Program-made: the position numbers and the translations under genes
Notes under the pieces: model-generated
Databases searched by the model: none
What the model was told of the DNA's origin: nothing
What the model saw: the letters and a program-made list of their open reading frames with translations, nothing else
DNA from: a virus
Strand: one strand, 5' to 3'
Length of the DNA stretch: 25,488 nucleotides
Virus record (IMG/VR): IMGVR_UViG_3300010373_000123
Coordinates: 1-25,488 of that record
In this document: positions 1,075 through 22,767 of the stretch, piece by piece
How positions within the stretch are numbered: the stretch's first letter is position 1
Layout of the letters: each line of letters starts with the position of its first letter

Positions 1075-1293
1075 TCACTCATTGTATATCTTCGGCATAT
1101 CATGCCACTTGGCTAATCTACTTTCTGGAAACGCATTATTCTTACCAGACCAAGGATATATTCCATCATCACCATTCCACCAAACAATGACCGGTTCGAA
1201 GAATGCATTGTTGTCAAAGAGAGCGATGATGTATCGTCCATCTCTGGGCGCATCATCCATGTCTTTCCATTCTGAGCAAAGAGTTTCCATCAT
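1075..1293 (-). CDS. Small Trp-rich protein, DUF551-like
   Basis: This 72-residue protein has the pattern of small phage proteins of the DUF551 type: W-x-M-D-D-A-P-R-D-G near residues 9-18, a hydrophobic strand (YIIALF), paired tryptophans (VWWNGDD) and a closing W near residue 63 (AKWHDMP). The function of that family is unknown. The start overlaps the previous stop as ATGA, with a second ATG immediately after, so the exact start may be one codon later. It sits in the minus-strand operon just before RNase H. The family assignment is by pattern memory only. Confidence 0.7.
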   Translation of the reverse strand: MMETLCSEWKDMDDAPRDGRYIIALFDNNAFFEPVIVWWNGDDGIYPWSGKNNAFPESRLAKWHDMPKIYNE

Positions 1294-1607
1294 TCAGACA
1301 CTTTCAATGTTGCTACTGATGCTTTGATAGTCAGGATGCCGGGAGTTTTTTCATCGAAGTAATGATCGGAAAATTCTTGAAATGGATGTTCTTTGTTATT
1401 CAAACTGTAGGCCAATGAACGAATCGCTTCCACGATCATTCCTATTTGTTTGTTTGAATGGCTCAAATCATAACCCATTTCTTGAAAGTTGGTAATGACA
1501 TTCGAACTAATCGAATCGATTAGAATATCGATTTCATTGTCTGAAAGACTTTCTGGTTCTGGATTAGGTGCTTTGATGGGAAACAAGACGATGTTATTTT
1601 CTGACAT
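1290..1607 (-). CDS. Conserved hypothetical protein
   Basis: This is a 105-residue acidic, probably helical protein beginning MSENNIVLFPIKAPNPEPE. I chose ATG 1607 because GGAGG lies five bases upstream; an ATG at 1622 would make the ribosome binding site part of the coding sequence. After a short hydrophobic and proline-rich N-terminus come an acidic helix (residues 20-35), a region rich in Asn, Gln and His, and a C-terminal strand-like stretch (GILTIKASVATLKV). No catalytic motif is visible. It overlaps the next gene by four bases (ATGA). The function is unknown. Confidence 0.75.
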   Translation of the reverse strand: MSENNIVLFPIKAPNPEPESLSDNEIDILIDSISSNVITNFQEMGYDLSHSNKQIGMIVEAIRSLAYSLNNKEHPFQEFSDHYFDEKTPGILTIKASVATLKVSE

Positions 1608-1636
1608 GCTACCTCCATACACAAATACTCACCTAC

Positions 1637-2641
1637 TTATGCTCGGTAGTTGAACATTTGTTTTTCAACCTCAAATTCGCGAGGTTCATTGAGAAGCGAT
1701 TTCAGGAAATTCTCCCATTCAATTTTTCTCAAATTCCAGTTGTAGAAGACATTCGCATAACCAGCTTGGCTTTCGAGTTGTCGATACAGACGTTCGTTAC
1801 TGTCATCGACGGCTTTGATCGCCTGCTCAAGAATGCTATGGAAACGACCGGCATGTTGCGATGGTTCCTCATGAAACTGATACATGAAGGTCCAATTCGC
1901 GGCAGTTTCCGGCAAAGCACCAAGATTCGGATGGACACAAACCAATCCAGCCGACATGGCTTCCATCAAGCAAAGACAGGACGTCTCTTCCCAAATGGAA
2001 GGATATGCGAAGATATCCGATTGCCGAATTGCTTCACGGACTTCATCCTGAGAAACCGATCCATGATTTGTTGCATTCGGAAGAGATTCGATATCTTCAA
2101 ATACCTTCTTGTATTGCTCGTCTCTTTCACCCCAACCATATAGATTGAAACTAGAATAGACGTCCAGATGAAGGTTGTATCTCTCCGACAATCTCTTGAA
2201 GACTGGAACAAGAATTTCCAATCCTCTATGCGGAGTAGAATGATAAATCAATCTCACCGCTGGTCCGACAGTTTTTGGTTCGTAATTAGGTTTAAGAGGC
2301 TCAATAGCATTCAACAGAACATGACAACGTCCCCAAGGAATGTTGTATGTCTTGATATAGGCTTGCATTTGCCAATTCGATACAAACACAAGCCGATGAT
2401 ACTTTCGCCAACCACCATTCTTGAGTTGATCCGATTCTGGATCACCCGGCAAGTCATGAGCTACAAAGATTCGAATCTTCGTTTCATCCAGATCGTTTCT
2501 CAATCTGGAATGAACAATGTGAAAATTCTCCAACAGATCGGACGGTAATGTCAGCATTCTTTGGGCCATCAATTCAGTGCCGCCCATAGCATTCTTGCTG
2601 ACATCACTTCTAATCAGTTTTCCGCCGATAATTTCAGTCAT
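1637..2641 (-). CDS. Glycosyltransferase, GT4-like (GT-B fold)
   Basis: This 334-residue protein has the features of a retaining GT-B glycosyltransferase. The N-terminal half carries NAMGGTELMAQRM (17-29), a common donor-loop start, and VFVSNWQMQAY (85-95). The C-terminal Rossmann-like half carries LIYHSTPHRGLEIL (131-144), an S-D-I-F-A-Y-P-S segment (208-215), and the E-x7-E motif (Glu219 and Glu227) followed by AMSAGLVCVHPNLGALPE. It would transfer a sugar from a nucleotide sugar to an unidentified acceptor, possibly phage DNA, a virion protein or a host surface glycan. Similar enzymes are common in T4-like phages of cyanobacteria and rhizobia. Its start overlaps the preceding gene by 8 bases. 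Confidence 0.88.
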   Translation of the reverse strand: MTEIIGGKLIRSDVSKNAMGGTELMAQRMLTLPSDLLENFHIVHSRLRNDLDETKIRIFVAHDLPGDPESDQLKNGGWRKYHRLVFVSNWQMQAYIKTYNIPWGRCHVLLNAIEPLKPNYEPKTVGPAVRLIYHSTPHRGLEILVPVFKRLSERYNLHLDVYSSFNLYGWGERDEQYKKVFEDIESLPNATNHGSVSQDEVREAIRQSDIFAYPSIWEETSCLCLMEAMSAGLVCVHPNLGALPETAANWTFMYQFHEEPSQHAGRFHSILEQAIKAVDDSNERLYRQLESQAGYANVFYNWNLRKIEWENFLKSLLNEPREFEVEKQMFNYRA

Positions 2642-2858
2642 TATATCTCGTTACTTTTTGTTGTTGGCAAGGAACATAATAATCATGCCTGACATTCCAC
2701 CATGCTTTAACATCTGGTTCAAATCTAAACATCCATGTTTTTGTCTTAGAATCAAACCAGAACGCTTTTAGCATATCTGCATTTTGTTCATGATTATGAT
2801 AAACCGTTAGATAATATCCAGATTCATTTGGCAATCCAGACAACCATTCGGCCATCAT
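2634..2858 (-). CDS. Small Trp-rich protein, DUF551-like
   Basis: This 74-residue protein begins [20 protein letters not shown] and contains spaced aromatic residues ([24 protein letters not shown]). The W...LP-x-x-x-G-x-Y layout resembles DUF551-type small phage proteins and the other Trp-rich protein at 1075-1293, so the operon may hold two distant relatives. The start overlaps the stop of the GapR-like gene as ATGA; a second ATG follows directly. No function can be assigned. Confidence 0.7.
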
Positions 2859-3073
2859 GCACCTAGCGCATTCAGATACGTTTCCATGAGGGCTTCCTGT
2901 TCGTCGCGTTCTGCCTTATCTAGCTTGCGAAGACGCACGACAGCCCGCAAAGCCTTCTTATCAAAACCCGATCCTGCGGCCTCTGCATAAACGTCCTTGA
3001 TATCATCAGAGATTGCCTTCTTCTCTTCTTCAAGACGTTCGATTCGTTCCACGATTGATTTCAACTGTTCCAT
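2855..3073 (-). CDS. GapR-like DNA-binding protein (DUF2312)
   Basis: About 72 residues match the GapR/DUF2312 family almost throughout: [19 protein letters not shown], then [22 protein letters not shown], then [21 protein letters not shown]. From memory, Caulobacter GapR shares the QLKSIIERVERLE, EVYAEAKGNGFD and VVRLRK segments. Cellular GapR is an alphaproteobacterial DNA-clamping protein that binds overtwisted AT-rich DNA and aids replication. The phage copy is shorter at the N-terminus and consists of the coiled-coil DNA-binding core. Three in-frame ATGs (3085, 3079, 3073) compete; 3073 has GGAA at a workable distance. It is the first gene of the minus-strand operon, divergent from the spanins, and is the best host clue in the window. 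Confidence 0.9.
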
Positions 3074-3123
3074 TTTCATTTCCATAATGGGTTAGAATGT
3101 TCTTCATCAAACATTGCTCAGAG

Positions 3124-3140
3124 TAAATAACAAGAACAAT
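3124..3140 (+). promoter_or_regulatory. Putative late promoter and leader for the spanin genes
   Basis: TAAATAACAAGAACAAT lies 14 bases upstream of the preferred i-spanin start. The first part matches the 3' portion of the T4 late promoter core TATAAATA (six of eight bases in this context, AGTAAATA). The same 17 bases occur upstream of the virion gene at 13929-14489 on the other strand, which argues for a conserved promoter and initial transcribed region. No promoter of bacterial type is obvious here. Confidence 0.55.
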
Positions 3141-3153
3141 CAGAGGAATGAAA

Positions 3154-3540
3154 ATGTTAGCCCTTCTCGCGTTTTTTGAATCACCACTCGGCAAACTTGC
3201 CGGATATGTCATCATTGCAATTTTGGCGGCTGGCGTCCTGTTTGGTGGGTATTATGCATGGAAGGTCCATGTTCAAAATCAAGCCATGCAAGAATTCAAT
3301 CAGAAACAGACGGAACAGGCCGACAAAGACCGCAAGGTGTTTGAAGAGAAGATGCAGAAAATCGAAGCGGTCCAAAATCAGATTCTCGGCAGCTTGCAAA
3401 AGCAACTCGATACTGTTAATGAGCAGTCCGATATTCTCCAAGACTACCTCGATTCAGACGAAGCAAAGGCTTCTGATCGCGAATCTTCTGCGGTCTTGAA
3501 AGAGACAGTTAAAAGACTGGGTGAGAGAGCAAAGAAATGA
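3154..3540 (+). CDS. Inner-membrane spanin (Rz-like)
   Basis: This 128-residue protein has one N-terminal membrane segment (about residues 13-34, LAGYVIIAILAAGVLFGG), then a long charged, Gln/Glu/Lys-rich periplasmic coiled coil. That is the architecture of Rz-type i-spanins, which join the o-spanin to disrupt the outer membrane at the end of lysis. AGAGGA lies seven bases before ATG 3154, so I prefer that start over ATG 3148, which abuts the ribosome binding site. The stop overlaps the o-spanin start (ATGA), a classic spanin gene arrangement. The host is therefore Gram-negative. Confidence 0.82.
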   Translation: MLALLAFFESPLGKLAGYVIIAILAAGVLFGGYYAWKVHVQNQAMQEFNQKQTEQADKDRKVFEEKMQKIEAVQNQILGSLQKQLDTVNEQSDILQDYLDSDEAKASDRESSAVLKETVKRLGERAKK

Positions 3541-3809
3541 GAAATCTAATTGTTGGCTTCGCCATGCTTGGTTTGTGCGGTTGTACAAGCCCAATGCTTA
3601 TCACTCAGAAAGCGGTCACTCCGAAAATCTCAAATGACTTTTTCAAGGACTGCAAGGTCGTCGACAAATATCCAGATTTCAGGAAGCTTACTGACACTCA
3701 AGTCGGCAAGCTATTGGACACTCTCGATACAAACAATCGTAAGTGCAAAGTGATTCTGGATGCCGTTCACGACTATCTGCAAAAGGCAGCGTTAATCACC
3801 AACGAATAA
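3537..3809 (+). CDS. Outer-membrane spanin lipoprotein (Rz1-like)
   Basis: This 90-residue protein starts MRNLIVGFAMLGLCGC and contains a signal-peptidase II lipobox LCGC with acylated Cys16. The Cys at the second lipobox position is less usual. The mature part is about 75 residues, with two more cysteines in the middle (DCKVV and NRKCKV) that could form a disulfide. Together with the preceding coiled-coil membrane protein, with which it overlaps as ATGA, it forms a two-component spanin. The assignment rests on lipobox, size and context rather than sequence identity. Confidence 0.8.
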   Translation: MRNLIVGFAMLGLCGCTSPMLITQKAVTPKISNDFFKDCKVVDKYPDFRKLTDTQVGKLLDTLDTNNRKCKVILDAVHDYLQKAALITNE

Positions 3810-8740: not shown

Positions 8741-9232
8741 TTATGCATTTTCTTTGTCTTCGACAAATCTATCAAGATTCTTAATCTGATAAATCCTACC
8801 GCTAGATATTCCATACTCCATAGCAAGTTTCTTTGCTGATTCTCCTGCACGAACTCTATCGAATATATCTTGTCGTTCGCTTTCTGTTATTTTTCCTCTT
8901 CGACCGATATAATTTCCATTATCAGTCCTATCCCTACAATTTTCTTTTGGGGTATCCCACCTTAAATTTGAGAGTTGATTGTTGTCTTTATTATCATCGT
9001 TATGACAACCATGCATTCCTTCTGGGCGAGGACCAACAAAGGTTTCCAAAACAAGATTATGCAAACGATGTTGCTTTCGTTCTATTCCCAATGAAATGAC
9101 ATGATAACCACTATAATTTCGGGTAGTTTTCATCAAATGAACGCCACCAACGCCACGAAATTTCAACGAACGGACTTCGCCATTTTCTGAGATTTCATAA
9201 CGACCTTCATAACCAACTAGAGGCTTCCACAT
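8741..9232 (-). CDS. HNH homing endonuclease (NUMOD4 + HNH + HTH)
   Basis: This 163-residue protein starts MWKPLVGYEGRYEISENGEV, a NUMOD4 module. It continues into an HNH_3-type nuclease (HRLHNLVLETFVGPRP, then HGCHNDDNKDNNQLSNLRW) and ends with an HTH (ITESERQDIFDRVRAGESAKKLAMEYGISSGRIYQI) for DNA recognition. The start is ATG 9232, overlapping the NrdJ stop as TGATG. Such free-standing nucleases cut alleles lacking them and spread by repair. Its place directly behind a ribonucleotide reductase gene fits the known habit of T4-phage homing nucleases of sitting at nrd genes. Confidence 0.92.
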   Translation of the reverse strand: MWKPLVGYEGRYEISENGEVRSLKFRGVGGVHLMKTTRNYSGYHVISLGIERKQHRLHNLVLETFVGPRPEGMHGCHNDDNKDNNQLSNLRWDTPKENCRDRTDNGNYIGRRGKITESERQDIFDRVRAGESAKKLAMEYGISSGRIYQIKNLDRFVEDKENA

Positions 9233-11586
9233 CAAACAACCTCTTTTACATCATCTCTGTTTTCATTGAATGAAATAGGACAGGCACCAGAACTACAATC
9301 GATATGAGCAAAGTCGATATCCTCTTCAATCTCGACCTTGATATTGCGAAGCATGTCCTCATACTCACCCTTCGAAATAATCGATTCTGGGACGTATTCG
9401 TATGAAGTGACTTCCTCTTGTGGCATCACAGAACAAGCACGAATTGTTCTCTGATACTTCTTGATCATCTCACCAAATTCCTTGATACCAACGATCTTGG
9501 GATCATACTTCAATGTATAAGAGATTTGGTTTCCACGATCTTCACCTTGTCCAATGATCCAATACTTTTCGCCTAACTGAAGCCAAATGTATTGTTCCTC
9601 TGGTGTCGCCTCGGCAGCGGTGACAAGCTTATCGTCCATGCCAAGTGTCGAAATAATCGGTGCTGTTGGAAATCCAACGACTGTTGTTCCTTCGTAAGTC
9701 TTCAATTCCTTGGTCGGATATCCGTTGTCTCTGTATGTTTCGACAAGAGGATCATCGGAACGGAATTGAACCCAACGCAAATAGAACCGCATTGAAGGAA
9801 GATGCCAACCTTCGGTAAGACCGAATAACTTAGACGTCGTTCCGGCTGGTTTGATTGTCGTCATTGTATGAGGCACGACCGTACCAAGTTTCTTGGCATA
9901 TGCTGCAGCCTCTTCCTTCACGACAGCATTGAACCATTCCAGTGTTTTCCAGAATGCAGCGGCACGAATGGCTGGATCGGCATGTTCACGGATTTCATTG
10001 ACATCCGATGTTTCTTTCGCAATCTCTTCGTAACCTGAGAAATTCGGAGCGATCATGTCGCGGAAACCAACACCAAAGAACTTCCATGCAAACTCATGAA
10101 CGCCGGTCATTCCGACGCCGATACGGTTTGTTCGCTTGTCTTCGACGCGATATAACGAGTCCATGGTGTTGACGCGAATAAGAGCCCTTGTGGCAACACG
10201 GAAAGCATCTTCCGCATCTTCAAGTGTTTCACAATGGAAAGGTACGATATCAGCAATCGTGCAATAACCAGAAAGAACAGAAAGACAAATTTCGCCGCAA
10301 GGATTGACGATGTAGTTGTACTTTTTCTTCTTCGCTCTCTTGGCGAGACGCGCCATGTAAAGTTCTGTCTCTTCTCTGATTTGATACTTGTCAGAGCCGA
10401 CATAATTTCCGCCAGTCAATGTATCCCAGCCTTCATCATTCTTGTGAAGCTTATCCACATTCAGAATGCCGGGTTCGCCAGTACCATCGCCATAACTACA
10501 AGCAAGCAATTCTTTCCAAACCTTGCGAGCATGTTTCGCAATCGGATCATTGAATTTTTCGTCGCTTCTCTTCAGATCGATCAAGTCCCAAAACTCTTTA
10601 TCGACAGCGACAGAGTTATTGGACGACCAAAGGAAGCTAAAGGTATTCGGATTCTTTGCACGGTAATCAATGACTTGTTCGACATTCATTCCGTTGAATT
10701 CAATCGGTCTCTTGACTTGAATGAATTCGATAATGTCTTTGTCTTTCCAGAACTTGGTTGACATACGAGCGGCACGACGAGCACCACCAACGAGAACACA
10801 TTCCGCAAAGTAGTGATCGGTATACATTGCTTGACGCCATGGCGCGATGCCAGAACCTTTCAGAGCAGCGGCTTTCATGAAAGCATTCATAAGCGGAACC
10901 GGACCTGATGAAGGTCTGTTTTGCATTCCTCCGATAGCAGCACCCTTCGGTCTCACATCAGAGAAATCCAGAATCAGCATCTTGTTGGCATGAATTTTTT
11001 CGAATGCAGCAACTTCCCATAGTTCCAGTGCATGAGCCCAACCCTCACGACTATCAGGAACCTTAAACCACATTACATTCTTGGAATCAGGACCGTACTT
11101 GTGCAAAGCATCGCGAACACTTTCATGAGCGGACCAATCGAAATCTGCATGTTTCTCTGACAACACGACACGAAGATTCGGCGCATTGTCCCAGTCAACG
11201 AGAATAAGATCGTCATCATAACAACGACCAACACCACTTCCATTCAAGAGAAGATAAAACAAAGCATAAGACGTCGCACTCGTGCTACAATTCACAAACA
11301 CTTCTTTATTGCGAGTTGGTTGAGTTGCATCGCCATGTTGCAAATGACGACCACTCATGAGAATCGACGCCTGCGAAATATGTCTCTTCAGCGATTCGTA
11401 TTCTTCGAATTGATCATCGACTGGAGCCAAGAGCGAATTTCCGATAGCAACACGCTCAGCAACATCCCCCCAATCTTCAAATTTTCCGTTTGGCTTGTGA
11501 CGTAAAATGGTTCGTTCGGCAACAGCTTGTCCCATTCCCTTATGAAGCTTACGGACAAATAAAGACGACGAGACAGCTTGCGACAA
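9232..11586 (-). CDS. nrdJ: Adenosylcobalamin-dependent (class II) ribonucleotide reductase
   Basis: This 784-residue enzyme reduces ribonucleotides to deoxyribonucleotides with a B12-derived thiyl radical. Visible sites are Cys100 in FVNCSTSATSY, the radical motif N-P-C-G-E (Asn428, Cys430, Glu432) in VNPCGEICLS with Cys442 nearby, and the C-terminal redox pair Cys764/Cys769 (CSSGAC). Size and single-chain form fit the monomeric class II type seen in cyanophages and some rhizobial T4-like phages. The start is TTG with AGGAG seven bases upstream; an in-frame TAA upstream and no ATG before residue 18 support this. A sigma70-like promoter lies at 11636-11664. No nrdA/nrdB genes are in the window. 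Confidence 0.95.
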   Translation of the reverse strand: MSQAVSSSLFVRKLHKGMGQAVAERTILRHKPNGKFEDWGDVAERVAIGNSLLAPVDDQFEEYESLKRHISQASILMSGRHLQHGDATQPTRNKEVFVNCSTSATSYALFYLLLNGSGVGRCYDDDLILVDWDNAPNLRVVLSEKHADFDWSAHESVRDALHKYGPDSKNVMWFKVPDSREGWAHALELWEVAAFEKIHANKMLILDFSDVRPKGAAIGGMQNRPSSGPVPLMNAFMKAAALKGSGIAPWRQAMYTDHYFAECVLVGGARRAARMSTKFWKDKDIIEFIQVKRPIEFNGMNVEQVIDYRAKNPNTFSFLWSSNNSVAVDKEFWDLIDLKRSDEKFNDPIAKHARKVWKELLACSYGDGTGEPGILNVDKLHKNDEGWDTLTGGNYVGSDKYQIREETELYMARLAKRAKKKKYNYIVNPCGEICLSVLSGYCTIADIVPFHCETLEDAEDAFRVATRALIRVNTMDSLYRVEDKRTNRIGVGMTGVHEFAWKFFGVGFRDMIAPNFSGYEEIAKETSDVNEIREHADPAIRAAAFWKTLEWFNAVVKEEAAAYAKKLGTVVPHTMTTIKPAGTTSKLFGLTEGWHLPSMRFYLRWVQFRSDDPLVETYRDNGYPTKELKTYEGTTVVGFPTAPIISTLGMDDKLVTAAEATPEEQYIWLQLGEKYWIIGQGEDRGNQISYTLKYDPKIVGIKEFGEMIKKYQRTIRACSVMPQEEVTSYEYVPESIISKGEYEDMLRNIKVEIEEDIDFAHIDCSSGACPISFNENRDDVKEVV

Positions 11587-19422: not shown

Positions 19423-20781
19423 TTAAGAAAAGAAAGCTTCAAGAGAAGCACCGCCGCGTTCATGCTTCCATCCGATAACGGACAAAATGTTTTTCACTGG
19501 TTCCAAGAAACACTTCTCAAATTGTGTCTCTCTATCCAATTTATCATCAAGTTTAAATTCCTTGGGCAAAATCGTTGCTACCGATATCACATTTGATTTA
19601 AGAGCATTCGGCATTTGTAAGTAGCAATACTTGACTTTATCACCATCAAAAATAGGCGGAATATTTTTGATACCAAAATCGTCCAAGGCTTTGTTGTAGA
19701 CCAAGGCACCGCGAACTTGAATTGGTGTCCCGGATTTGAAGATCGTGTCATCATCAGCATACTTCTTCATGCCTTTGATACCACGCGGAGAGGCTATTTC
19801 ATCAAATGGAAGTGTCTCAAATTCCTTTTTGTAGTTCTCGATAAACGTAAGGACAGTTTCTTCATCCGTGTTCATAATGAGTTTGGATACTTCTTTGATC
19901 CTTTCTCGACATGACGATGGCGTCGAAGATCGAACAGACTCCAGACCTGTGATGCTAATCTTTGGTTCATGGAAACGAACGTCTTCCTTGTCCCATACAT
20001 TCAGAATGTATCGTTTCTTGCCGGTCCAAATACCCTTTTCACAGATGGATTCTCGCTTCATGATCATCTTTTGTTGAACAGCATTCATACGAACGCGAAG
20101 TTCTTCATACGATTTAGAAATAACCGATTGGAATTTGACCTTCACACTTTCGTTGATGAATTCAATAATGTCTTCTTTGGAATCGTCTTCATCGAAGATA
20201 GTTTTGATCAGTGGTCCGAAATTCAAATAAACCGAATCCGTATCTGCATAGATGACATAATCAACATTCTTGGTTTTCAAAACCTTGTTCATATATGCAT
20301 TCAGTTTCTTTTCAATCCAACGAATCGAAAGTTGACCGCCCATGGTAATTGCTTCGGCATTGTCGAAGTTATAGAAACGGAAATATTCGTTTGTCAGCAC
20401 ACCATAAGCGGCGTTGAGTAAGATTTTCTTGTTCAACTGAGCATTATGCTGTTTGGCAATTTCGTTCTTCAATGCCTCTTGTTCTGCCGGATCGTTGCAA
20501 TCTTCAAGCTTGCGCTTGGCTTGAAGCATCAGGTTCTTATTTTCGACACGACCATTATAGAGTCTTTCCATCATCTTTGGAAAGAAACCCTCTATTTCAC
20601 GATTGTAAAGACAACCATTCGCCGCCACGATGCAATTCAATTCGCGAGCAACAGAAGTATCAATATCATCATTCAAAAATTTATCGACACTGGCTGAATT
20701 CATATCATCTAAGAATTTTTCCAAGCGATTTATTTCGTCAAGTTTTTCTTGACGAGTCATTTCTTCAATTGGTCTAAACAT
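19423..20781 (-). CDS. 43B: DNA polymerase, C-terminal chain (gp43B)
   Basis: This 452-residue protein is the C-terminal half of a T4-type family B polymerase. It holds the palm remainder, fingers and thumb: NGCLYNREIEGFFPKMM (about 55-71), motif B KKILLNAAYGVL (118-129), motif C YADTDSV (178-184), KKRYILNVW, and the C-terminal clamp-binding end GGASLEAFFS. The first Asp (motif A) is on the other chain. ATG 20781 overlaps the HNH gene by 25 bases; ATG 20760 overlaps the HNH stop as ATGA, the coupling style of this genome, and would remove only seven residues. Conservation of motifs suggests it is functional, not a decaying fragment. Confidence 0.94.
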   Translation of the reverse strand: MFRPIEEMTRQEKLDEINRLEKFLDDMNSASVDKFLNDDIDTSVARELNCIVAANGCLYNREIEGFFPKMMERLYNGRVENKNLMLQAKRKLEDCNDPAEQEALKNEIAKQHNAQLNKKILLNAAYGVLTNEYFRFYNFDNAEAITMGGQLSIRWIEKKLNAYMNKVLKTKNVDYVIYADTDSVYLNFGPLIKTIFDEDDSKEDIIEFINESVKVKFQSVISKSYEELRVRMNAVQQKMIMKRESICEKGIWTGKKRYILNVWDKEDVRFHEPKISITGLESVRSSTPSSCRERIKEVSKLIMNTDEETVLTFIENYKKEFETLPFDEIASPRGIKGMKKYADDDTIFKSGTPIQVRGALVYNKALDDFGIKNIPPIFDGDKVKYCYLQMPNALKSNVISVATILPKEFKLDDKLDRETQFEKCFLEPVKNILSVIGWKHERGGASLEAFFS

Positions 20782-21317
20782 TTATTATGTTTCCGTCTAT
20801 TTTCACTCATTGTAAGATACTGTAAATTATTTGGATGATGTTTTCCACCGCGAGACAAAGGAACGATGTGATCAACCTCATACCCTTTCGGACAATTCAA
20901 ATAAAAATCTCTAATAGTTGCTCGTTCTTGCTCTGTTAAATCTACAGAAGCATTTTTCAAACGAGCACGTCTTCTGGCAGCAACATCATTCAACATTTTG
21001 CGCTTATGATCATAACCTAGAAACCTATAATCATAAGAACATTTAAACGAACAGAATTTGATCTGCCATTTACCATCATTTCTGAATCTCGATACTTCAA
21101 AAACACCACCACAATTCAGACAAATTTTTTCTACTCTTCGTTTTCTATTCTCATTCTCTAATCGTTTTGGTTTCTTAATTCCGAACTTAGCCAACAACTG
21201 TTTTACTCTGACATCAGAACAACCCAATTTGTTTGCAATGTCTTTGCGTCTAAAATTTTGATCGATATACCAATTCTTCAGTTCTTGTTCTGTTACAAAG
21301 ATTCTTTTAATTGGCAT
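20757..21317 (-). CDS. HNH homing endonuclease inserted in gene 43
   Basis: This 186-residue protein has an N-terminal helix-turn-helix (about 9-48, with DIANKLGCSDVRVKQLLAKFG), a four-cysteine zinc knuckle (CLNC and CSFKC with spacer, 66-95) and a C-terminal HNH nuclease: YEVDHIVPLSRGGKHHPNNLQYL then ENRRKH. It lies between the two polymerase chains, overlapping both by 25 bases, and is in a different frame from each. The insert is essentially only this gene. Base composition looks more AT-rich than the polymerase halves. It is probably a free-standing homing nuclease that targets uninterrupted gene 43; the cut site is not shown. Confidence 0.93.
   Translation of the reverse strand: MPIKRIFVTEQELKNWYIDQNFRRKDIANKLGCSDVRVKQLLAKFGIKKPKRLENENRKRRVEKICLNCGGVFEVSRFRNDGKWQIKFCSFKCSYDYRFLGYDHKRKMLNDVAARRRARLKNASVDLTEQERATIRDFYLNCPKGYEVDHIVPLSRGGKHHPNNLQYLTMSENRRKHNKCLDQLKK
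20761..21314. repeat. Imperfect short repeat bounding the HNH insert
   Basis: On the minus strand CCAATTAAAAGAAT (21314-21301), inside the start of the HNH gene, resembles CCAATTGAAGAAAT (20772-20759) at the start of the second polymerase chain, with 11 of 14 bases identical. AGA also precedes both insert junctions. The two copies mark the probable insertion boundaries. Confidence 0.5.
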
Positions 21318-22564
21318 ATTCTATCTTGAATAACTTTCTTGTTCACCATCGTTTCGGGTGAGATTCCATATTGCATGATCAAATGTGGATACAGAGAATT
21401 CAAATCGAAAGAAACAACCCACTCATGCATTCCAAGGATTGGATTCTTGACGTGACCGCCAACCAAGCTGTCTTTTTCATTGTCGAAATAAGAACCTTTC
21501 AGCTTTGGCGGGAAGACGATGTTTTGTTTCATCAACTCGCCATAGGATTTAATTTCCCATGGTTTGACCGATCCCAGCATGTCTTCGAAGTTGCACTTCG
21601 CTTCATAGGCCATGGAGAATATCAACTCCAAAAGCCGCAATTTGTTTTCTAGGCGATCCACCAGTCCGACGTCACGGACGTTATATTCCATGAATAATTG
21701 ATGGTTCTCTCGATAGAGACCTGTAAGGTTCTGATACTCGGAATAATCCAGCTTACGTTCGCCCAACTCAATGAAAGCGATGTAATCGAGTTTGTAGGAT
21801 TCTCTCGGTTCGAATGTCAGTTTCTTGTAGACCAAGAGATAATCGAGAAAAGCGACACCGACCGGAAAGAAGTATTCTTTCACGATGCCACGATAGAAGG
21901 TTCTCTTCTCGGATAACATTCTCCATGGTGAAAGACGTTGAGCAGATTCGACATTAAGAATGCGAACGATACGATTTACAATGTAAGGAATATCGAAGCC
22001 AACAATGTTCCAACCAGTGTAACAATCAGGTTGGAAATGCTCCACGGTATCGAGAAATTTGAGTAACATTTCTTCTTCAGTGTCGCACTGAATATAAGTT
22101 ACGTCATCTTTCGGAACAAACTCCCTGAGACCGAATGCGACAACCATTCCACAACACTTAATTGTGATGGCAGTTATTGCCTTATCGGCTTCATCGATAT
22201 CCGGCATTCCTTCATCTGAAACCGTTTCGATATCGATATTTGCTATCCTGATTAAGGATTGATCATATTCAATGTCTTCCCTATATTCATCAAAAATATA
22301 TGTGTAAGGAAATGATTCGAAGCCATAGAGTTTTGAATTGCCGATATCGGCATATTTCTTGATGGCCTGTCTAGCTTCATAAATCGAATCATAGACCTTC
22401 GGCGCGACACTCAAACCTTCCAGCGTTTTATATTCGCTTGGTTTGTTCGTCTTCATATAAAGAGTTGGTTTATACCTCTCTTTATGGAAGAATTGCTTTC
22501 CATTATCATAACCACGGACGAGCAAATTGTTGCCGCTTTGAACGACATTTGTGTAAAACTTCAA
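21293..22564 (-). CDS. 43A: DNA polymerase, N-terminal chain (gp43A)
   Basis: This 423-residue protein is the N-terminal half of a T4-type family B polymerase. It has the N-terminal domain (FYTNVVQSGNNLLVRG aligns with the T4 start), the complete 3'-5' exonuclease (Exo I Asp111-Ile-Glu113, Exo II GWNIVGFDIPY at 184-194, Exo III YNVRD at 294-298) and palm motif A FDLNSLYP with Asp387. The frame stops about 30 codons after motif A, with an eight-residue tail (ICQLKESL) that comes from the insert. The start is TTG 22564 with AGGA six bases upstream; the next ATG is at residue 37. The proofreading site looks intact. Confidence 0.94.
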   Translation of the reverse strand: MKFYTNVVQSGNNLLVRGYDNGKQFFHKERYKPTLYMKTNKPSEYKTLEGLSVAPKVYDSIYEARQAIKKYADIGNSKLYGFESFPYTYIFDEYREDIEYDQSLIRIANIDIETVSDEGMPDIDEADKAITAITIKCCGMVVAFGLREFVPKDDVTYIQCDTEEEMLLKFLDTVEHFQPDCYTGWNIVGFDIPYIVNRIVRILNVESAQRLSPWRMLSEKRTFYRGIVKEYFFPVGVAFLDYLLVYKKLTFEPRESYKLDYIAFIELGERKLDYSEYQNLTGLYRENHQLFMEYNVRDVGLVDRLENKLRLLELIFSMAYEAKCNFEDMLGSVKPWEIKSYGELMKQNIVFPPKLKGSYFDNEKDSLVGGHVKNPILGMHEWVVSFDLNSLYPHLIMQYGISPETMVNKKVIQDRICQLKESL

Positions 22565-22575
22565 ATATAATCCTA

Positions 22576-22767
22576 TTAATAAGATTGAGAATGATTTTTA
22601 CGAGGACAGATTGGACTTTCGCATGTCTTCTCAGATGTTGGCGGACAAATACAACCCATTGGAGGACCAAACGATGGTATTTGATTCATAGCTGGTATGA
22701 AATTCTTCATACCGCAAAAACGACAATTGCCGCCAGAATCCATTTTACATGGACCATAACACGTCAT
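22576..22767 (-). CDS. Small cysteine-rich protein
   Basis: This 63-residue protein begins MTCYGPCKMDSGGNCRFCGM and contains eight cysteines (3, 7, 15, 18, 39, 41, 49 and 54) in about 50 residues. That suggests two metal sites or a disulfide-free zinc cluster in the cytoplasm. Proline and glycine are abundant (PSFGPPMGCICPP). Its start overlaps the MazG-like stop (TAATG). It sits between RegA/MazG and the polymerase, an operon position not held by such a protein in T4. I recognise no family. Confidence 0.72.
   Translation of the reverse strand: MTCYGPCKMDSGGNCRFCGMKNFIPAMNQIPSFGPPMGCICPPTSEKTCESPICPRKNHSQSY

Follow-up and report, generated by a model that had tools for sequence, protein, structure and literature searches.

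How a replicative DNA polymerase can be maintained when its gene is interrupted by a nuclease gene is the question raised by the viral DNA of IMG/VR record IMGVR_UViG_3300010373_000123. The stretch analysed here (the window, 25,488 nt) is the entire 25.5-kb fragment. In it, the T4-type polymerase gene 43 is divided into an upstream part (43A) and a downstream part (43B) by a gene encoding a free-standing HNH endonuclease. Comparison with related loci indicates that a two-chain polymerase was very probably created here by a mobile cassette. This cassette appears to comprise, besides the nuclease gene, the DNA for a C-terminal extension of 43A (tail) and an N-terminal extension of 43B (head).

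Gene 43 is distributed over two cistrons

The coding sequence for the polymerase (gp43) was found split into three overlapping open reading frames (ORFs) on the minus strand, each in a different frame, the HNH ORF overlapping by 25 nt with 43A and by 25 nt with 43B. The three ORFs and the polymerase motifs are the following:

22564-21293, minus strand: 43A, N-terminal chain (exonuclease, palm start, motif A), 423 aa, TTG start, from Pfam and T4 gp43 alignment
21317-20757, minus strand: free-standing HNH endonuclease gene (helix-turn-helix (HTH), Cys4 zinc-ribbon-like part, HNH), 186 aa
20781-19423, minus strand: 43B, C-terminal chain (fingers, remaining palm, thumb, C-terminal end), 452 aa, from Pfam and T4 gp43 alignment
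21383..21406, minus strand: motif A DLNSLYPH (D387-H394, in 43A), from translation and alignment
20401..20427, minus strand: motif B KILLNAAYG (in 43B), from alignment
20233..20250, minus strand: motif C YADTDS (in 43B), from alignment

Pfam analysis detected the DNA_pol_B exonuclease domain (DNA_pol_B_exo1, 4e-20) and the start of DNA_pol_B (3e-7) in 43A, the remainder of DNA_pol_B (4e-13) in 43B, and HNH (3e-6) in the middle ORF. When aligned with T4 gp43, 43A corresponded to residues 3-427 and 43B to residues 450-898. As 43A stops at T4 residue 427 and 43B resumes at 450, the break is located after motif A, in a linker. Next to motifs B and C, 43B also holds KKRY and the C-terminal SLEAFFS. 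The exonuclease motif, motifs A, B and C and the typical gp43 gene neighbours were all present, and the two adjacent cistrons jointly make up one complete T4-type gp43 (family B). A first-pass annotation made from the window alone had already described gene 43 at 19423-22564 as cut in two by an HNH gene, with the exonuclease and motif A Asp387 in the N-terminal chain, a break after motif A, motifs B and C plus the C-terminal end in the second chain, and every catalytic motif intact. ORFs, Pfam, translation and alignment agree with this description on each point, and the motifs were also found to be kept in relatives.

The split gene is flanked by regA, gp62 and gp44 upstream, and by a RecA-like gene (UvsX) and a gp41-type helicase gene downstream. 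Since these gp43-type neighbours are present and the same layout occurs in dozens of related contigs, the arrangement is not a product of chance.

A family of cassettes at a single site of gene 43

The same junction was present at many IMG/VR loci. Scans with gp43 profiles gave 160 loci, mostly intact, with several split at this site. A search of viral contigs with the HNH protein of the window alone returned no relatives, and an alignment was required as query; the corresponding scan of IMG/VR found 98 relatives, from which 80 loci were kept. 43A lies directly upstream of the nuclease gene in 80/80 of these loci, and 43B downstream in all of them except four whose contigs show no 43B. Occupation of one conserved site in related genomes, together with the occurrence of uninterrupted alleles, is what characterises a homing cassette. 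Among cultured phage records, none holds at least 80% of the HNH protein.

Two parts of the nuclease deserve a separate description:

21168..21296, minus strand: HTH module, also present in the GIY-YIG nuclease that occupies this site in loci L103 and L264
20781..20879, minus strand: HNH catalytic motif (EVDHI ... GGKHHPNNLQ ... N), Pfam HNH at residues 147-179, invariant in alignment A3

The HNH residues of the window are intact, as in a complete nuclease domain, and EVDHI is retained in 55 of the 56 split loci that possess an HNH motif. L103 and L264 have a GIY-YIG nuclease at the site, joined to an HTH module similar to the one in the HNH protein. LEM-3-type Pfam matches were obtained for both (1e-8 and 3e-5, that of L264 being just below the curated cut-off). 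Scanning with the L264 protein revealed 19 loci. All 19 occupy this position in gp43, and wherever the contig covers tail and head, these are the same. The catalytic domain thus seems to be replaceable (HNH or GIY-YIG) behind a common HTH module. A GIY-YIG nuclease with this HTH module, combined with the same tail and head, was noted in L264 (3435-3971) and L341-L359.

In locus L042 (3777-3989), an HNH remnant, mostly deleted and with EVYHI in place of EVDHI, was found between intact 43A and 43B. As this locus keeps both halves next to a decayed nuclease gene, the split persists beyond the decay of the nuclease. In Synechococcus phage S-CAM7, a cultured phage (L260, gp43 at 1202-3805), gp43 is a single chain of ~868 residues that contains YAISPET as well as a long linker reminiscent of tail and head joined together, and the same pattern was seen in the single-chain gp43 of IMG/VR locus L262. 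Both look like the re-fused scar of a cassette. Four states appear to exist: gene 43 may be intact, re-fused or split, in the last case with a nuclease that is either apparently complete or decayed.

Two further loci, L019 and L152, were considered as long-linker or partial relatives and rejected, as they are short-linker genes in which no split was seen. The multi-piece gp43 annotated in metaG-MbCM1 was also discarded: uvsX and a neighbour are broken too, so that assembly frameshifts are the probable cause. Extra DNA of ~1 kb is located between the HNH gene and 43B in L239 (4019-5060), and shorter extra stretches at the same place in L021, L025, L201, L205 and L212. With psbA as host marker, a single weak partial match at a contig edge was obtained in the large split contigs, which gave no information on the host.

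Recurrent transfer with co-conversion of flanking sequence

On gp43 trees from which the linker columns had been excluded, intact and split alleles were intermixed, supported branches forced at least 16 changes (FastTree) or at least 12 (IQ-TREE), and the grouping of split alleles in one clade was rejected (approximately unbiased test, p 5.65e-95). The DNA of the split locus L228 is mostly 73-96% identical to that of the intact locus L116 over 43A; beside the insert it resembles distant split alleles, with up to 93% identity in the first 60 codons of 43B. In 33 split loci, the donor-like share of informative sites was 0.33 far upstream and 0.37 far downstream of the insert, compared with 0.74 in the last 15 codons to SPET and 0.69 in the first 15 after ANG. 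The synonymous divergence (dS) was 0.52-0.67 for the cassette (nuclease, tail, head) versus 1.1 for the polymerase cores. Taken together, the intermixed trees, the pattern of L228, the donor-like gradient and the lower dS of the cassette demonstrate recurrent transfer with co-conversion. Horizontal spread and co-conversion were observed in relatives, the window itself having no close relative for such a comparison.

Replacement of a conserved Asn next to motif A

The Asn of YNISPET, located just past motif A, is kept in 185/186 intact alleles. In 58/59 split alleles, the same position is occupied by Ser, Ala, Gly or Cys, the exception being the GIY-YIG locus L103. Locus L242, which is outside the 59-allele count, also retains Asn. 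The window follows the majority of split alleles:

21365..21367, minus strand: Gly400 of 43A, in place of the motif A block Asn

At the substituted position, several unrelated codons occur (TCA, TCC, GCA, AGC, GGA), which suggests selection for a small residue and not one inherited base change. The cause of the replacement may be structural accommodation or protection from the nuclease.

Split alleles carry an additional tail and head

The extensions found at the two new protein ends in the window are the following:

21296..21349, minus strand: 43A tail (residues 406-423, MVNKKVIQDRICQLKESL), type conserved in split loci and missing from the intact gp43 of close relatives
20692..20781, minus strand: 43B head (residues 1-30, MFRPIEEMTRQEKLDEINRLEKFLDDMNSA), conserved start M[FW][RKN], helical extension missing from intact gp43

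In every non-redundant split allele examined, 43A extends past SPE[TN] as a tail and 43B begins with a head of ~30 residues, while only a short linker is found at this position in 109 intact alleles. The head follows M[FW][RKN]....M[ST]..E in the main split lineages and differs from this type in L242 and L103. The ratio of nonsynonymous to synonymous substitution rates (dN/dS) is near 0.2 for tail and head. Locus L042 was chosen for modelling with AlphaFold2 (AF2) because its two halves share one frame, permitting read-through. The model reached a predicted local distance difference test score (pLDDT) of 87 and a predicted template modelling score (pTM) of 0.82, and its fold matched RB69 gp43 with a template modelling score (TM) of 0.83. 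This overall fold was to be expected, as the AF2 alignment held intact gp43 rows. Within the model, the tail forms a helix at 413-431 and the head a helix at 495-514 with pLDDT >90, and the sequence in between is disordered. On the basis of conservation and of this prediction, preference is given, with due caution, to the interpretation that tail and head are docking adaptors for the two chains.

Alternatively, both extensions could be neutral by-products, i.e. a stop codon and a start region provided by the insert, the normal gp43 fold alone being sufficient to assemble the halves. This explanation is possible, if rather doubtful; it is compatible with the origin of the two-chain enzyme from a mobile cassette and disputes the docking step only. 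It draws on the split polymerase of Aeromonas phages, which is active (PMC2988022) yet broken elsewhere, and on the dN/dS of tail and head being higher than that of the polymerase cores. It accounts less well for tail and head being conserved across distant split lineages and missing from intact gp43, for the confidence with which the head helix was predicted, and for a parallel in phage Aeh1, where the assembly domains of the split ribonucleotide reductase NrdA are reported to be derived from a mobile element (title of Crona et al. 2011, cited in PMC3267527).

Both halves are maintained by selection

Purifying selection acts on both halves in many relatives, with dN/dS values of 0.098 for 43A and 0.125 for 43B. 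The split polymerase might still be a dead relic in a genome replicated by another polymerase, and such a view could be based on the window being only a fragment and on replacement of the motif A Asn in HNH-split alleles. It is very unlikely, given the selection on both halves and the conservation of all catalytic motifs. Moreover, a second intact polymerase, which the first-pass annotation had named as a finding that would contradict an active two-chain polymerase, was not encountered in two split relatives of near-genome size (202 kb and 174 kb), in which neither another PolB nor PolA was detected.

The two chains are likely to be translated separately

Production as one chain by splicing or frameshifting, the other such finding named in that annotation, is not indicated by the junctions. 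The search for Rfam introns was negative for the window and for 15 split relatives, and it recovered the phage 25 intron as a control (64 bits). No intein domain was detected by Pfam in the window, and no intein halves at the junction, where the tail has 18 residues and the head 30. The distance and the frame between 43A and 43B vary across 87 split loci (near-copies included), and several relatives have extra ORFs or 170-1000 nt between the nuclease gene and 43B. An ATG belonging to 43B is present at the same aligned position in 41/41 non-redundant loci, and a Shine-Dalgarno-like 4-mer precedes it in 19/41 loci versus 12% at random positions. The lack of intron and intein, the variable spacing and frame and the separate start of 43B argue that two chains are made. 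Together with the purifying selection on both halves, this supports, as the best reading, the two-chain polymerase with an active site built from both chains that had been considered likely at first pass.

A self-splicing group I or II intron carrying the nuclease ORF, with the polymerase produced as a single chain, is highly improbable. It has precedents in gene 43B of phage 25, which carries the group I intron used here as control, and in polymerase-gene introns with HNH nucleases such as I-PfoP3I of cyanophage Pf-WMP3 (PMC3428280). Apart from the negative Rfam search with a working control, such an intron would find scant room, since ~25 nt of each chain lie inside the nuclease ORF. It is equally difficult to reconcile with the additional ORFs or DNA between nuclease gene and 43B in relatives, with the conserved ATG of 43B, and with tail and head evolving as protein (dN/dS about 0.2).

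Ligation of the chains after translation by a split intein can be practically dismissed. Inteins have a size of ~130 residues, and with 43A stopping 18 residues past SPET and a 43B head of only ~30 residues, both ends are too short. A fractured gene of this kind was proposed for PolB of phage MIJ3, in which two PolB ORFs with intein blocks flank an HNH ORF (PMC6892783); tail and head are unlike any block quoted for MIJ3. Fusion of the halves by ribosomal frameshifting or bypassing, as in T4 gene 60, whose 50-nt bypassed insert may be connected with the spreading of a homing endonuclease located next to it (PMC5009743), hardly comes into consideration, because the gap here is ~0.2-1.6 kb, holds genes, varies in length and frame among relatives, and is followed by the own start of 43B.

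Proposed mechanism

According to the mechanism proposed here, a free-standing homing-endonuclease cassette was inserted into gene 43 just past motif A, by which a one-chain polymerase would have become two separately translated chains assembling into one enzyme. The active site would be composite, with motif A contributed by the first chain and motifs B and C by the second. The mobile unit would be larger than the nuclease gene and include the DNA for the new C-terminal tail of 43A and the new N-terminal head of 43B. During homing, an uninterrupted gene 43 of a co-infecting phage would be cleaved by the nuclease in its conserved motif A region. Repair templated by the donor would then copy the nuclease gene together with tail, head and part of the adjacent polymerase sequence. 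Under this proposal, tail and head form helices that aid docking of the chains. If so, each invasion would bring the repair kit for its own damage. A class of homing elements with their own assembly adaptors, which delivers a matched tail and head, alters the motif A Asn, and has swapped its nuclease while keeping target and adaptors, is a somewhat probable interpretation of these features.

Several points weigh against this mechanism. The window is a 25.5-kb fragment with a best gp43 identity of about 50%, and its own insertion event is therefore undatable. For the same reason, the negative result on a second polymerase rests on relatives and not on its own genome. The dS of the polymerase cores is near saturation, and the donor and sister comparisons depend on each other. 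The change counts on the trees cannot separate gains from losses, and part of the patchiness may be due to losses. In the AF2 model, the intact gp43 rows of the alignment impose the global fold.

Comparison with known split genes

Split gp43 is known from Aeromonas phages 25 and 44RR, in which it is encoded as 43A/43B (Petrov, Ratnayaka and Karam 2010, reviewed in PMC2988022). The first-pass annotation had mentioned this case correctly, but the break there lies elsewhere. According to the review, the phage 25 chains co-purify and polymerise, which indicates that a two-chain gp43 can work. As in the window, separate cistrons encode the two chains, and a homing endonuclease gene lies between them in phage 25. 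On T4 gp43, the Aeromonas break was located at residues ~500/512 (fingers; between 500 and 512 in 44RR), ~70 residues further on than the 427/450 of the window. In phage 25 the nuclease is Seg, a GIY-YIG enzyme, and in 44RR the halves are separated only by an untranslated spacer, whereas the window has HNH. A recurrent co-converting cassette with a conserved tail and head, as seen here, is not reported for the Aeromonas split in that review. In L147 (3965-6806) and L164 (4001-6624), a cyanophage-like gp43 is apparently split in the fingers region of the Aeromonas break, with no nuclease between the halves.

The closest mechanistic precedent is NrdA of phage Aeh1. There, a free-standing HNH gene (mobE) also splits an essential enzyme gene without an intron, and an active two-chain enzyme results (PMC2988022). 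Its assembly domains, said to be mobile-element-derived in a title cited in PMC3267527, can be compared with the tail and head described here. The Aeh1 case concerns ribonucleotide reductase and was reported for one phage, and the present one concerns a polymerase. In T4, mobA and gene 39/60 similarly combine a gene split by a homing nuclease with accessory sequence nearby (PMC5009743), which in gene 60 is the 50-nt bypass; here it is a protein-coding tail and head, with no bypass. Jumbo phage MIJ3 shares the HNH ORF between two PolB ORFs (PMC6892783) and differs by putative split intein halves, of which none are present here.

What was already known is the existence of split gp43 in Aeromonas phages, and what is new is this site, the recurrent mobility, the supplied ends and the nuclease swap. 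No description of the site, breadth, recurrent spread, supplied ends, Asn substitution or nuclease swap was found in the literature searched, subscription papers being outside its scope. These loci indicate that a split within the palm of a replicative DNA polymerase can arise again and again across many lineages, with neither intron nor intein to mask the damage. Should tail and head dock, this would represent a third way, beyond introns and inteins, for homing elements to reside inside an essential gene, and both extensions could serve in the construction of split polymerases as adaptors already tested in nature. Close pairs of split and intact alleles (e.g. L228/L116) allow the cost of the split to be measured directly. 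The nuclease swap at one site amounts to a natural experiment on the part of a homing endonuclease that determines its target.

Neighbouring genes and additional observations

The genes identified next to the split gp43 are the following:

23505-23095, minus strand: regA
23159-22767, minus strand: MazG-like gene
19411-18335, minus strand: uvsX, directly 3' of 43B, with RecA-like Pfam matches; same order in P-SSM4 (T4-like, cyanophage order)
18262-16871, minus strand: gp41-type helicase

Between the MazG-like gene and 43A, a Cys-rich ORF of 63 residues (22576-22767) gave no Pfam or PHROG match. A near full-length ribonucleotide reductase gene (phrog_367) is located at 9232-11586, and its end is overlapped by 4 nt by a second HNH endonuclease gene (phrog_59, 8741-9235). 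The ORF at 7884-8279 matches several families of homing endonucleases in addition to phrog_447 (labelled NAD synthetase).

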